Shown here: in pieces, positions 5,314 through 25,893 of the stretch | Layout of the letters: the number at the start of each line of letters is the position of its first letter | Numbering within the stretch: position 1 is the stretch's first letter | Assembly (NCBI GenBank): GCA_023458215.1 | Contig: JAEXAJ010000124.1 | Location: 1-35,745, forward strand | Length of the DNA stretch: 35,745 bases | Direction: 5' to 3' | Origin: Bacteroidota bacterium | Lineage (GTDB): Bacteria > Bacteroidota > Bacteroidia > Bacteroidales > Bacteroidaceae | Notes under the pieces: generated by a model | Seen by the model: the letters and a program-made list of their open reading frames with translations, nothing else | Told to the model about the DNA's origin: nothing | Database searches by the model: none | Position numbers and translations under genes: made by a program

Positions 5314-5414
5314 CTCCCTACCTGCTCCCTACTTTCTCCCTGTCTATAGCGAGGGAAAACACAGGGAGTTGGTAGGGAGCAGGTAGGGAGCGGGTAGGGA
5401 GGAGATAGGGTGCA
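5314..5414. repeat. GTAGGGAG inverted and tandem repeat
   Basis: The left arm 5314-5343 is complementary to 5361-5390 in 27 of 30 positions, with a 17-nt loop. The right side continues as four 11-bp tandem units of the type GGTAGGGAGCA (5371-5381, 5382-5392, 5393-5403, 5404-5414, the last one degenerate). It fills most of the gap between the NlpE-like and FecR genes and is G-rich on the plus strand and C-rich on the minus strand. It would form a strong hairpin in RNA. Confidence 0.85.
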
Positions 5415-5478
5415 GATAAAATTGTTCTATTTGTCTTATTTCCTTTTTCTTATTTATTCTTGTACTGCTATTTCTTTT

Positions 5479-18907: not shown

Positions 18908-20293
18908 ATGAAAAAGCAAATAATCACTTTAGTTGTAGCAGCGCTCTCATTGAGCAGCTGCGGCATCTATAATAAGTACAAACCCGTAACTGCCGTTCCC
19001 GACAAACTCTACGGAACGGATGTAACAGCGGTTGATACACTTGGAACGGCAGGCAGCACCCGCAGTCTCGCCGATCTGAGTTGGCGTCAACTCTTCACCG
19101 ATCCCCAGCTGCAAACCCTCATCGAACAGGGTTTGCAAAATAACACCGACCTCCAATCCGCCCAATGGCGGGTAGAAGAGGCACGTGCTTCACTCAGTGC
19201 AGCCCGTCTTGCCTATCTGCCTTCTTTCGCCCTCTCTCCGCAAGGCACAGTGAGCAGCTTCGACAAAGGGAAGGCTTCACAAATCTATTCGCTACCCGTC
19301 ACCTCCAATTGGGAGATCGACATCTTCGGTCGTCTGACTAACGCCAAGCGTCGCGCCAAAGCCCTCTATGCCCAAAGCCAAGAGTACGAACTTGCCGTTA
19401 AAACGCAACTGATAGCGAACTTGGCGAATGCTTACTACACCCTCCTGATGCTCGACGCCCAACTGGCCATCTCGCAGGAGACCGAAGTAAAATGGAAAGA
19501 AAGTGTCCGTGTGATGCAAGCTTTGAAGAATGCCGGCCAAGGTAACGAAGCCGGACTGGCACAGACCGAAGCAACCTATTACTCCATCTGTACCACCGTT
19601 CTCGACCTGAAAGAACAAATCAGCCAAGTAGAGAACAGTCTTTGTCTGATGTTAGGTGAAACGCCTCAGTCTATCCGTCGCGGCAACCTCGAAGGTCAGG
19701 TTCTTCCGCAGGAACTCTCAGTAGGCATCCCCTTGCAGCTTCTTGCCAACCGCCCCGACGTAAAAGCTGCCGAACTGGCACTGACACAAGCCTTTTACAC
19801 TACCAACGAAGCCCGTTCTGCCTTCTATCCGTCTGTTACTCTCAGTGGTTCTGCCGGATGGACAAACGGAGCAGGAGAGATGATTTTAAATCCGGGAAAA
19901 CTATTGTTATCAGCCGTCGGTTCACTCACCCAACCGCTGTTTAATAAAGGCCAAAACATCGCCCGCCTCAAAATAGCCAAAGCCCAACAAGAGGAAGCCA
20001 AACTCGCCTTCACCCAATCGTTGCTCAACGCCGGTGCCGAAGTGAATAATGCCTTGAAACAAAACCAAACGGCTCGTGACAAAGCAGGCTTCTACACCAA
20101 GCAGATCACTTCACTGCAAACAGCGGTTTCCAGCACCCGGCTGTTGATGCAACACGGCAGTTCCACCTATCTCGAAGTGCTTACCGCACAGCAAACCTTG
20201 CTGACCGCAGAACTGACGCAAGTCAGCAACCGCTTCCAGGAGATACAAGGGATAATTAATCTGTATCAAGCATTGGGAGGAGGGAGAGATTAG
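18908..20293 (+). CDS. TolC/OprM-like outer-membrane efflux lipoprotein (NodT type)
   Basis: The protein has 461 residues. The lipobox LSLSSC gives lipidated Cys18. Two outer-membrane-efflux (OEP) repeats follow (about 65-255 and 265-455). Hallmarks are the hairpin helices QTLIEQGLQNNTDLQSAQWRVEEARA, the PSFALSPQG strand, VTSNWEIDIFGRL and the second-repeat RPDVKAAELALTQAFY and SLTQPLFNKGQNIARLKIA. It forms the trimeric exit duct of the pump. It starts 18 nt after the pump stop, so it is the third gene of the operon. A large hairpin follows directly. Confidence 0.93.
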   Translation: MKKQIITLVVAALSLSSCGIYNKYKPVTAVPDKLYGTDVTAVDTLGTAGSTRSLADLSWRQLFTDPQLQTLIEQGLQNNTDLQSAQWRVEEARASLSAARLAYLPSFALSPQGTVSSFDKGKASQIYSLPVTSNWEIDIFGRLTNAKRRAKALYAQSQEYELAVKTQLIANLANAYYTLLMLDAQLAISQETEVKWKESVRVMQALKNAGQGNEAGLAQTEATYYSICTTVLDLKEQISQVENSLCLMLGETPQSIRRGNLEGQVLPQELSVGIPLQLLANRPDVKAAELALTQAFYTTNEARSAFYPSVTLSGSAGWTNGAGEMILNPGKLLLSAVGSLTQPLFNKGQNIARLKIAKAQQEEAKLAFTQSLLNAGAEVNNALKQNQTARDKAGFYTKQITSLQTAVSSTRLLMQHGSSTYLEVLTAQQTLLTAELTQVSNRFQEIQGIINLYQALGGGRD

Positions 20294-20391
20294 TTATTAG
20301 TTATAAGTTATAAGTTATTTGTTTGTAATCAAGCTACGCTCTACATTACATGAAAACATAAACAAATAACTTATAACTAATAACTTATAAC
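20293..20391. repeat. 32-bp inverted repeat, likely terminator of the efflux operon
   Basis: Arms 20293-20324 and 20360-20391 are complementary in 30 of 32 positions around a 35-nt loop. Each arm consists of tandem AGTTAT/AAGTTAT-like heptamers, so the arms can slip against each other. It lies between two converging genes and begins at the last base of the channel stop codon. Confidence 0.8.
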
Positions 20392-20394
20392 TAT

Positions 20395-23593: not shown

Positions 23594-24628
23594 TCAGAAG
23601 ATATATTGAAGTCCGAACTGATAGCCTATGTACAATTGCTGCACTCTTGTCGAACCGTCCTTCTTCCATAAGGAATGATTGGGGAACATTTTAAGGTTGC
23701 TCATATCCTTTGTATCCATATAATTGATTCCTGCTCCCGCAAACAACTCCACATGTTTACCGATTTTGAAAGCGGGTAGTAGCGAATAACCTGCATTGAA
23801 AACCGGTTCGTCCGTATTGTTGCCGATGCAGGTCATCTTAAGTTCATTGTTTATTCTGAACCAGGATGTAACAGGAATGTGAGCACCCAATCCGGCTTCG
23901 GTCACCAGTGAGTTGTTACTTGATTTATGGTTGTATCCCGCACCCAAGATTCCATAAGTATATTTACCACCCGAGCGGAATGATACCACTGTAGTTCCTA
24001 TTGCATCGTAAGTGACGGCAATACCTTTCTCCCCATTCTTTATGATGTTGATTAGTCCGATGGGGCAGTCACTGTTTTCAGCGATATTGATAAGTCCGGC
24101 AAACTGCACACCGCGAACATCTTTAGCGATATTTATTAATCCTGCAAACTGTACGCCGCTAATGTCTTTTGCCTTGTTCATCAGTCCCGCAAACTGAACA
24201 CCACTTGCATCCTCTGTCATATTGGCTAATCCTGAGAGTTGAAAGCCCTTCATCTCTGAAGCTGTATTTACTAATCCTGCCATCTGGAAGCCGCTGAAAC
24301 GGTTCTTGTTAATATTGGCCAATCCTGCATACTGAACCCCTTGTCCGTCATTTCCCACGTAGTTTGCCAATCCCGCCATTTGAAAACCTTTGGCATCATT
24401 CAGTATGATATTCGCGAGTCCTCCCCAGGTAAGTGCTTCTTCGTTTTGTGAAATACCCGCCAGCAGATTGATAGAAAATGTATTTGTATATTGAGACGAA
24501 TACATCCCATTAGTGCTCAGCGGGGGAAAGAAACTTAACTGAAATGTTGTTTTCTTATCTACACTTGTTTGAGCGAATAAGGTGCCATAGAATGATACAC
24601 ATAGTAGTAATGCTAAAATTTTCTTCAT
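23594..24628 (-). CDS. LA_2272-type surface repeat protein
   Basis: The protein has 344 residues. A signal peptide ends TLFAQ (residue 20). Residues about 66-195 hold roughly nine repeats of 15-16 residues, each ending in a G-x-Q-x-A-G-L-x-N pattern (Leu at about 71, 87, 103, 119, 134, 149, 164, 179 and 192). This regular period suggests a stacked beta solenoid. The C-terminal part (about 205-344) has alternating strands and ends LYIGYQFGLQYIF, an outer-membrane-barrel-like ending. This matches the LA_2272 surface-repeat family, whose function is unknown. It is exported and probably in the outer membrane. A TATCTTTG box lies upstream, and the gene is divergent from the HU-like gene across a repeat-rich gap. 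Confidence 0.78.
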   Translation of the reverse strand: MKKILALLLCVSFYGTLFAQTSVDKKTTFQLSFFPPLSTNGMYSSQYTNTFSINLLAGISQNEEALTWGGLANIILNDAKGFQMAGLANYVGNDGQGVQYAGLANINKNRFSGFQMAGLVNTASEMKGFQLSGLANMTEDASGVQFAGLMNKAKDISGVQFAGLINIAKDVRGVQFAGLINIAENSDCPIGLINIIKNGEKGIAVTYDAIGTTVVSFRSGGKYTYGILGAGYNHKSSNNSLVTEAGLGAHIPVTSWFRINNELKMTCIGNNTDEPVFNAGYSLLPAFKIGKHVELFAGAGINYMDTKDMSNLKMFPNHSLWKKDGSTRVQQLYIGYQFGLQYIF

Positions 24629-24792: not shown

Positions 24793-24922
24793 TGAACTAA
24801 ATGACAAAAGAATTATTTTTAGACATAAGAACAAAAGAACATATTCATAGTAAGATATAGCTTATGTTTTCTAATTTGTTCTTTTGTTCTTATGTCTAAA
24901 AAATAACATTCTGTTTAGTTCA
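24793..24922. repeat. 130-bp inverted-repeat element
   Basis: The outer ends TGAACTAAA (24793-24801) and their complement (24914-24922) flank a longer match. Its core, 24818-24840 with 24878-24900, is a perfect 23-bp inverted repeat around a 37-nt loop. Small indels separate the outer and core matches. There is no coding capacity and no adjacent transposase. The size and terminal inverted repeats resemble a MITE-like insertion, but no target-site duplication was confirmed. A structural or regulatory hairpin is the alternative. Confidence 0.7.
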
Positions 24923-24997
24923 TGTCGACCAGCGTATTGAGCCTATTTAATTGCCAACTCACATGAATAATACTTTCACGCTGCCGGATATTAATAG

Positions 24998-25232
24998 AAA
25001 ACTTCCTCGATCCTTATTGAAAACTTGCTTTGCTTAGAGATAAAACTTACCTTTGCTATAGAGAAAACTATAACCGAAACTTTTGAATATAAAACCGGAA
25101 CTTCTGATTATATAATCAAAACTTCTGATTATAAAACCGAAACTTTTGATTAAAGTTTATACTATAAGTAAAGCAACTTTTATCTCTAAGCAAAGCAAGT
25201 TTTCTCTTAACGTAAAGTAAGTTTTATATTAA
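24998..25232. repeat. Phased A-tract repeat array forming one large palindrome
   Basis: Three blocks are visible. The left block has AAAACTT at 24998, 25020 and 25042 and AAAACTA at 25064, spaced exactly 22 bp. The middle block has four 21-bp tandem units (25071-25091, 25092-25112, 25113-25133, 25134-25154) with the core A-C-C-G-A-A-A-C-T-T. The right block has AAGTTTT-type motifs at 25153, 25175, 25197 and 25219, again exactly 22 bp apart but in inverse orientation. The whole segment 24991-25232 is an imperfect palindrome centred between 25111 and 25112 (GATTATATAATC), with 27 consecutive paired bases between 25019-25045 and 25178-25204. It ends 19 bp before the HU-like gene. Confidence 0.9.
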
Positions 25233-25251
25233 CATCCAATCAATCAGAAGT

Positions 25252-25893
25252 ATGGCATATTATGTAATGGAAGAAATGCCCGACATACACAAGACGGGCG
25301 AACGGATACTCTATCCCCGTTTTGCTATGATAGAGCAAGTATCCACCGAAAAGTTGGCACAGCTAATAGCCGAAAGTAGCGGCTTCAATATGGGAGACAT
25401 CTTAGGTGTCGTGAAACAAGTTGCCATCGAGATGGCGCACCAAATGGCGCAGGGACGCTCTGTAAAGCTCGATGATATCGGAACTTTCACACCTGCACTT
25501 GCCTTGCGCGAAGGTAAAGAACGTGAAGAAGCCGGTGAGGACGCCAAGCATCGCAATGCACAAAGCATCGTGGTAGGCAAAGTGAATTTCCGTGTAGATA
25601 TGGACCTCGTGAGGCGCATCAACGGTCGATGCCTGCTGGAACGTGCACCTTGGAAGACCCGCCGATCCTCCCAAAGATTTACCCCGGAGCAGCGGCTTGC
25701 ATTGGCCTTGAAGCATTTGGAAACACACCCTTTCCTCACCGTCAGCGAATACCAAGGATTAACAGGACTACTTCGTACTACTGCCTCCACTGAGTTGCGC
25801 CAATGGGCCTACCAGGCTGATTCCGGTATCGATACTGCCGGACGTGGAGTGCATCGGGTATATATCAGAAAGAATATCCCTGTTGTCGAATAA
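25252..25893 (+). CDS. HU/IHF-related DNA-binding protein with C-terminal winged helix
   Basis: The protein has 213 residues. Residues about 25-125 are an HU/IHF-like domain (STEKLAQLIAESSGFNMGDI, GRSVKLDDIGTFTPAL), longer than classical HU (90 residues) and matching the HU-related family common in Bacteroidales. Residues about 138-210 form a separate helical unit with a basic wing (RFTPEQRLALALKHL, YQGLTGLLRTTASTELRQW, RGVHRVYIRK), similar to a winged helix-turn-helix. It probably bends or bridges DNA. The phased A-tract palindrome ends 19 bp before its ATG and is an obvious candidate binding site. A Crp/Fnr gene follows after 5 nt in the same operon. Confidence 0.85.
   Translation: MAYYVMEEMPDIHKTGERILYPRFAMIEQVSTEKLAQLIAESSGFNMGDILGVVKQVAIEMAHQMAQGRSVKLDDIGTFTPALALREGKEREEAGEDAKHRNAQSIVVGKVNFRVDMDLVRRINGRCLLERAPWKTRRSSQRFTPEQRLALALKHLETHPFLTVSEYQGLTGLLRTTASTELRQWAYQADSGIDTAGRGVHRVYIRKNIPVVE

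Follow-up and report, generated by a model that had tools for sequence, protein, structure and literature searches.

A long palindrome built of regularly spaced repeats lies just upstream of a gene for an HU-like protein in the DNA analysed here, a stretch of 35,745 nucleotides from a Bacteroidota bacterium (contig JAEXAJ010000124.1), referred to below as the window. The question raised by this locus is whether the repeats belong to the gene behind them and, if so, what would read them. Genomes and loci used in the comparison carry G and L numbers, respectively. The features of the locus are as follows.

24986..25237, strand not assigned: whole palindromic element with 3+4+3 AASTT sites, from palindrome pairing and a comb fit of 50/50
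25000..25048, plus strand: left arm, sites 1–3 (25000, 25022, 25044), 22-bp pitch
25048..25055, plus strand: putative −7 box TACCTTTG (TANNTTTG), assigned to the HU-HIG gene and lying between sites 3 and 4
25068..25154, plus strand: core, four near-palindromic sites (AASTT at 25078, 25099, 25120, 25141), 21-bp pitch
25175..25223, plus strand: right arm, sites 8–10 (25175, 25197, 25219), 22-bp pitch, mirroring the left arm
25252..25893, plus strand: HU-HIG protein, 213 aa, HU domain (PF18291, TIGR01201) and predicted C-terminal winged helix
25899..26474, plus strand: Crp/Fnr-type regulator, 191 aa, a neighbor that is not conserved at homologs

The element is an imperfect palindrome centered on 25111/25112. 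A pairing count across the window gave 89 complementary pairs out of 121 at 24991–25232, with a longest perfect run of 27 pairs (25019–25045 with 25178–25204), in agreement with a hand count made in an earlier, sequence-only reading of this DNA. When all centers in the window were scored, the mean was 30.5 (SD 5.0), the next unrelated center reached 60, and 89 was the highest value; the best palindrome in 1,000 dinucleotide shuffles of 24961–25262 scored 59. The ten AASTT sites start at 25000, 25022, 25044, 25078, 25099, 25120, 25141, 25175, 25197, and 25219, and their spacing of 22-22-34-21-21-21-34-22-22 is exactly mirror-symmetric. TRF returned the pitches of 22, 21, and 22 bp that had been proposed earlier, although the two 34-bp gaps between the arms and the core had been missed. 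The paired region ends 19 bp ahead of the ATG at 25252, which bears out the distance first given. Because the whole element is a palindrome, inverted repeats are present at its ends.

Each unit of the array is a near-palindrome about AASTT. The best core unit, ATAATCAAAACTTCTGATTAT, has 9 of 10 pairs, the four core units jointly have 24 of 32, and a rigid ten-site comb fits the window array at 50/50. The unit had previously been described as an A-tract that would bend the DNA, a description that does not hold: a run of at least four A or T is found close to the center in 46 of the 180 core sites of 45 copies of the element (defined below), and sites of the ACACCCGGGTGT and CTACATGGCATGTAG type at paralogous genes contain no A-tract. 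A-tract curvature was rejected, on these sequence comparisons, as a shared trait of the arrays.

Other repeats were seen in the window. A separate inverted repeat at 24816–24902, ∼80 bp to the left of the array, has 30-nt arms that are 97% complementary and a 27-nt loop, with a partial relative at L160:3064–3119; a search of Rfam gave only sub-threshold microRNA matches, all on this neighboring repeat. The 344-aa gene to the left of the array contains a 45-bp tandem repeat (24080–24202) encoding GVQFAGL-like protein repeats. Further tandem repeats of 11 bp (for example, AGGGAGCAGGT) and 7 bp (ATTAGTT, ATAACTT) are found at 5314–5415 and 20289–20393, respectively.

The 213-aa product is a member of the HU-HIG/TIGR01201 proteins of Bacteroidota. 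In a profile search, it scored 70.2 bits against HU-HIG (PF18291) and 104.3 bits against TIGR01201, with curated cut-offs of 26.2 and 68.6, and a profile of the family retrieves HU sequences. A search gave 226 homologs, and PF18291 is present in all 120 of the 226 among the matches listed. The AlphaFold2 model (mean pLDDT 85.8, pTM 0.57) contains an HU part and a C-terminal winged helix with three helices and two strands at 145–206. HU and IHF chains rank first when the model is searched with Foldseek (best E 1.1e-3), and the C-terminal part searched alone gave no Pfam match. As modeled, the protein would be an HU fold fused to a winged helix-turn-helix, which agrees with a family whose members join the HU fold to a winged helix-turn-helix, an Ig part, or a glycine-rich part.

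To what extent the array accompanies the gene was apparent from ten homologous loci, recovered from a search of genome contigs at 30%–82% protein identity. A phased array is found upstream at all ten. The ten-site comb fits seven Bacteroides loci, which are 64%–82% identical in protein (L007, 52%), at 47–50 of 50, and in the comparison of the window with these seven orthologs the site columns are 88%–94% identical, with values of 54%–86% for non-site columns in the core and 45%–68% for those in the arms. At L008 (47% identity), four ATCTTTA...TAAAGAT sites at 21 bp replace AASTT. Four AASTT sites at 21 bp are kept at L009 and L010 (∼30% identity), and L010 has a second array, of 23-bp pitch, closer to the gene. 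In B. faecalis (L007:371–994), the HU-HIG gene is broken by several stops and frame shifts and the ten-site array before it is intact (50/50); two further homologs in this genome both read as open. The array is conserved at orthologs with fixed spacing, as a self-operator would demand. The tie between a phased array and an HU-like gene, which the sequence-only reading had proposed, is upheld: arrays missing or out of phase at orthologs were to have told against it, and it was not refuted because arrays are present at the homologous loci and their spelling follows the protein. A conserved partnership with the adjacent Crp/Fnr gene, also proposed, was rejected, since a Crp/Fnr gene lies within ∼2.4 kb downstream at none of the ten loci.

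The link extends to the wider gene family. A set of 132 unique HU-HIG genes was assembled from 13 genus-group genomes and the homologous loci; three had too little upstream DNA, and 129 were scanned for repeats with periods of 8–40 bp in the 300 bp upstream (z ≥ 4). Among the long genes (195 aa or more), 42 of 51 have such a repeat, in all 42 cases at 21–23 bp. Repeats with a period of 20–24 bp precede 14 of 78 short genes (23 of 78 for any period) and 10 of 256 control ORFs (25 of 256 for any period), and the difference between long genes and controls is pronounced (Fisher p ∼3e-33). The 51 long genes fall into 28 clusters at 60% identity, and in 24 of these at least half of the members have an array. 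A typical paralog array has four near-palindromic sites, and each paralog group spells them in its own way (ACTATAGT, CCACGGCCGTGG, GACTTAAGTC, and others). A palindrome score of 1.2 or more was reached in 45 of the 51 long genes, compared with a maximum of 1.15 in 40 shuffles of two-base blocks. A clean array also lies upstream of L048, which encodes a 129-aa protein without a winged helix. The B. xylanisolvens genome alone contains 34 HU-HIG hits; in a scan of 30 loci, four of which were left out as untestable, 12 of the 26 testable genes have a 21- to 23-bp array of their own spelling upstream. In a fresh sample of 20 hand-picked HU-HIG hits from three previously unused genomes, a 21- to 22-bp repeat (z > 5) was present in five of six long and none of 14 short genes, and the four-unit palindrome score exceeded 1.2 in just three of the six long genes.

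Arrays of AAAGC...GCTTTA palindromes at 22 bp were also seen beside a 72-aa gene at L126:1504, L099:2431, and L040:2576. These cassettes also contain a short HU-HIG gene, and those at L126 and L099 have in addition an amidase-like gene, named by eye.

The position of the array suggests how it might act on the gene. The sequence TACCTTTG at 25048–25055, inside the left arm and 32 bp before the center of the first core site, fits TANNTTTG, which we take to be the Bacteroides −7 box consensus. Given this position of the box, the 5′ UTR of the HU-HIG gene would probably include the core and right arm. Of the 51 long genes, the 45 with an array score of at least 1.2 were used for promoter counts (six fell below), and 37 of them have TANNTTTG no more than 70 bp ahead of the first site center, 32 at 31–33.5 bp; about 0.07 per 70 bp would be expected by chance. 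Among the 45 copies of the ten-site element, the box occupies its slot in all ten gene-linked copies (five of the genes lie behind ortholog loci and were counted through their own loci), compared with four of 35 dispersed copies in either orientation. In the fresh sample, the strict TANNTTTG was found at the fixed distance in none of the six long genes; one of them, L303, has TACCTTTA at −33. The array thus overlaps or adjoins the predicted promoter of the HU-HIG gene, as would be required of a self-operator.

If the protein itself read the sites, their spelling should change with it. Across the same 45 long genes, the more identical two proteins are, the more alike are their sites (Mantel r 0.57, exceeded in 0 of 2,000 permutations, in a set that includes register errors at L112 and L013/L083). 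This correlation is confounded by common descent, which alone could yield it. Bacteroides sp. ET71 (G020) offers stronger evidence. Its nearest homolog has an ATCTTTA-type array, and seven further places of this type occur in the genome (E ≤ 1e-3), of which four were examined and all proved to be 21-bp arrays; no AASTT-type copy was found there with the window array as BLAST query (E ≤ 1e-3). Conversely, B. bouchesdurhonensis (G017) has the AASTT type and no ATCTTTA-type place (best E 0.54). Dispersed arrays, in other words, share the spelling of the array at the resident HU-HIG gene.

Dispersal of the array in the genomes of related species was unforeseen in the sequence-only reading. With the window array as BLAST query (E ≤ 1e-3), which gives lower bounds, and with the gene-linked copy included, seven places were found in B. 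xylanisolvens (G001), five in B. nordii (G015), nine in G018, and 12 each in B. faecichinchillae (G016), B. bouchesdurhonensis, and B. faecalis (G019). The ten-site element is thus dispersed in intergenic DNA at 5–12 places in six of eight ortholog genomes. In B. timonensis (G014), the closest relative examined, the gene-linked copy is the only place at this threshold. With the L234 copy as query (E ≤ 1e-10), the counts rise to 18, 12, and 18 places in G016, G018, and G019. The 45 copies compared are those of the window, four ortholog loci, and 40 places (some of them weaker BLAST hits) in three genomes, G017, G001, and G018. The exact ten-site geometry fits best in 27 of the 45, and 14 of the other 18 are off by one base in one spacing; likeness among copies in BLAST is mostly ∼65%–80%. 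The flanking genes are convergent, tandem, or divergent. Only at L222, among the 40 places, does a frame of 70 codons or more cross the middle of the array, and at L251 the neighboring gene overlaps the array end by 15 bp.

Copies are gained and lost between species. Beside the NAD kinase gene, in a comparison of six genomes, the whole array is present in G017, G018, and G019 and part of it in G016, and none was found in G001 or G013. Four sister species have an intact array at the L234 locus; at the L233 locus, core units have been lost by internal deletion in two of four. The L237/L256 place is common to sister species, with neighbors 95% and 97% alike. A subset of the dispersed copies has ∼120 bp of common flanking homology, and L222, L235, and L236 have the appearance of a recent larger repeat. 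Matches in plasmid and phage sequences were confined to ten B. finegoldii records labeled as plasmids and three unannotated fecal records, and the two B. finegoldii records inspected have chromosome-like genes. Beside the L234 array (∼1430–1615), an insert of ∼190 bp is present in G016 and G017 and absent from G018 and G019; it has relatives elsewhere in G016 and G018 and looks like a small mobile element. At L271, in another Bacteroides genome, a row of TGGCAC/GTGCCA palindromes was seen by eye in the 110 bp that directly follow the NAD kinase gene.

Phased palindrome arrays are a wider feature of the B. xylanisolvens genome, since a scan for four-unit palindromic arrays in 384 kb of its other DNA (20 hand-placed stretches) found nine, all at 21–22 bp. 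One, located in a convergent gap, is a second complete ten-site AASTT element; another is of the ACTATAGT type, five are of a dispersed CCTTTTAAAGGAAC type, and two are others. The ACTATAGT type, which belongs to other paralogs, also occurs away from all 34 HU-HIG hits at 3655190, 3737889, and 2500108. The CCTTTTAAAGGAAC palindromes, accompanied by CACCGAGAAAC at a 22-bp pitch, are located at L155:1010, L167:6612, L149:27, L152:15388, and L148:17964; three of the five are in convergent gaps, and a search at E ≤ 1 gives ∼16 places genome-wide. No HU-HIG gene is linked to the four-unit palindromic arrays of 22-bp pitch at L164:8846 and L163:943. A terminator or REP-like role is possible for other arrays located in 3′ intergenic DNA.

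The array geometry, its conservation, the link to one gene family, the position of the promoter-like box, the scattering of copies in related species, and the change of spelling along with the homolog are all observed. The explanation that we favor, and consider probable, is that the array is the self-operator of a sequence-specific HU-HIG protein, which represses its own gene through a phased complex and, in some lineages, has dispersed stations elsewhere. We infer the dimers, their binding and cooperativity, the repression, and any role of the copies found elsewhere. HU-HIG homodimers would occupy the ten near-palindromic sites. As the pitch of 21 or 22 bp is about two helical turns, neighboring dimers would be placed on nearly the same face of the DNA, and it is proposed that they assemble cooperatively into one dyad-symmetric complex. 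With the promoter box located between sites 3 and 4, such a complex would shut the promoter of the HU-HIG gene, a form of negative autoregulation. The dispersed ten-site elements of several related species would serve the same protein as binding stations, likely to act in nucleoid organization or local control of transcription. Such stations are not general, given that B. timonensis has only the gene-linked copy.

Several observations do not sit easily with a self-operator: the intact array before the broken L007 gene, the coming and going of copies, and internal deletions at two orthologous copies. Moreover, 64 of 78 short HU-HIG genes have no array by the same upstream scan, yet L048, without a winged helix, has one; 22-bp palindrome arrays without HU-HIG linkage exist; and the fresh sample repeats the palindrome score only in part and has the strict promoter motif at the fixed distance in no gene. 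Some of these points would be explained if the array were a mobile palindromic repeat, MITE- or REP-like, of which one copy landed at an HU-HIG promoter, so that binding by the protein would be unnecessary. The almost entirely intergenic copies, the turnover of places between species, the flanking homology in a subset, the recent-looking repeat at L222/L235/L236, and the array left intact ahead of a broken gene all fit this possibility, and a comparable P. gingivalis element, BrickBuilt, has been termed a MITE, some of its loci showing target duplications (PMC4596501). We nevertheless regard it as unlikely. Copies that are only ∼65%–80% alike hold, in 27 of 45 cases, ten sites at the same spacing, and the arrays of paralogous genes are unrelated in spelling but equal in pitch. 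In addition, the gene-linked copy persists at homologs while other places turn over, and a comparison of two loci across three sister genomes showed no empty site, the loss there being an internal deletion.

Reading of the sites by another DNA-binding protein, such as the Crp/Fnr neighbor or another nucleoid protein that merely regulates the HU-HIG gene, would accommodate the 22-bp arrays away from HU-HIG genes, and binding by the HU-HIG protein is itself inferred. This is improbable in view of the absence of the Crp/Fnr neighbor at all ten homologous loci, the shift of site type with HU-HIG sequence, genome-wide in G020, and the recurrence of arrays within one protein family, at 24 of its 28 clusters. 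The repeats could alternatively work as RNA, in a leader hairpin or attenuator, as the core and right arm are downstream of the putative promoter box and the element is a long palindrome. Complementarity of the central bases between mirror sites gave a mixed result in the 27 copies: it was found for sites 2–9 in 22 and for sites 4–7 in 20, but for sites 1–10 in 13, sites 3–8 in five, and sites 5–6 in 15, compared with a mean of 12.0 for non-mirror pairs. Taken over all mirror pairs, these counts indicate no consistent pairing. The 196-nt leader is only slightly better folded than its shuffles (z −1.33), of which 21 in 200 do equally well, the fixed two-turn pitch is a constraint of DNA, many copies lie in convergent gaps, and the box accompanies only four of the 35 dispersed copies. 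A role as RNA is very improbable.

The self-operator proposed here has partial precedents. HU proteins are usually regarded as non-specific, and we know of no phased site array at hupA. Site arrays at helical pitch or dispersed stations occur in iterons, ParB-parS, and BIME/REP arrays, which involve unrelated proteins and motifs. Among titles and abstract openings in the literature, no description of an operator array at HU-HIG/TIGR01201 genes was found. The published element nearest to the array is BrickBuilt, from P. gingivalis (Klein et al., 2015; PMC4596501), reported to be a mobile element and a minisatellite that has promoter activity, present in 19 intergenic copies in one strain, with 23-nt tandem units numbering 1 to 22.8. 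Its copy 14 (84 nt, ∼3.7 units) lies between PGN_0871 (minus strand) and PGN_0872 (plus strand), the latter encoding a DNA-binding protein in which the domain is of the HU family (PF00216). The likeness is one of description: intergenic tandem units, a copy before an HU-family gene, and many intergenic copies per genome on both sides (for the array, in six of eight genomes). Words beginning with “palindrom” and the phrase “HU family” do not occur in the text of PMC4596501. The gene for the P. gingivalis HU-type protein PG0121 is transcribed together with an operon whose 5′ end bears a large palindrome, a 77-bp inverted repeat (PMC3969353). This palindrome is a single potential stem-loop, unlike the ten-site array, and one heading in that paper mentions non-discriminatory binding, unlike the specific binding proposed for the HU-HIG protein. 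The same source cites autoregulation of E. coli hupA, in which HU is implicated in the control of its own gene.

A broader proposal, which we hold only tentatively, is that many of the HU-HIG proteins of the Bacteroidales are sequence-specific nucleoid architects. Each of these would have a private palindromic site, read in two-turn arrays, repress its own gene through four or ten sites set at a fixed distance from the promoter, and in some lineages seed copies elsewhere on the chromosome, with several pairs of protein and array coexisting in one cell, and the “MITEs” or minisatellites of the BrickBuilt type would be stations of such proteins. If true, this would represent a new mode of sequence-specific bacterial chromatin. 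Binding sites could then be predicted for many uncharacterized regulators at once, and some of the dispersed repeats of Bacteroidota would be recast as protein stations.
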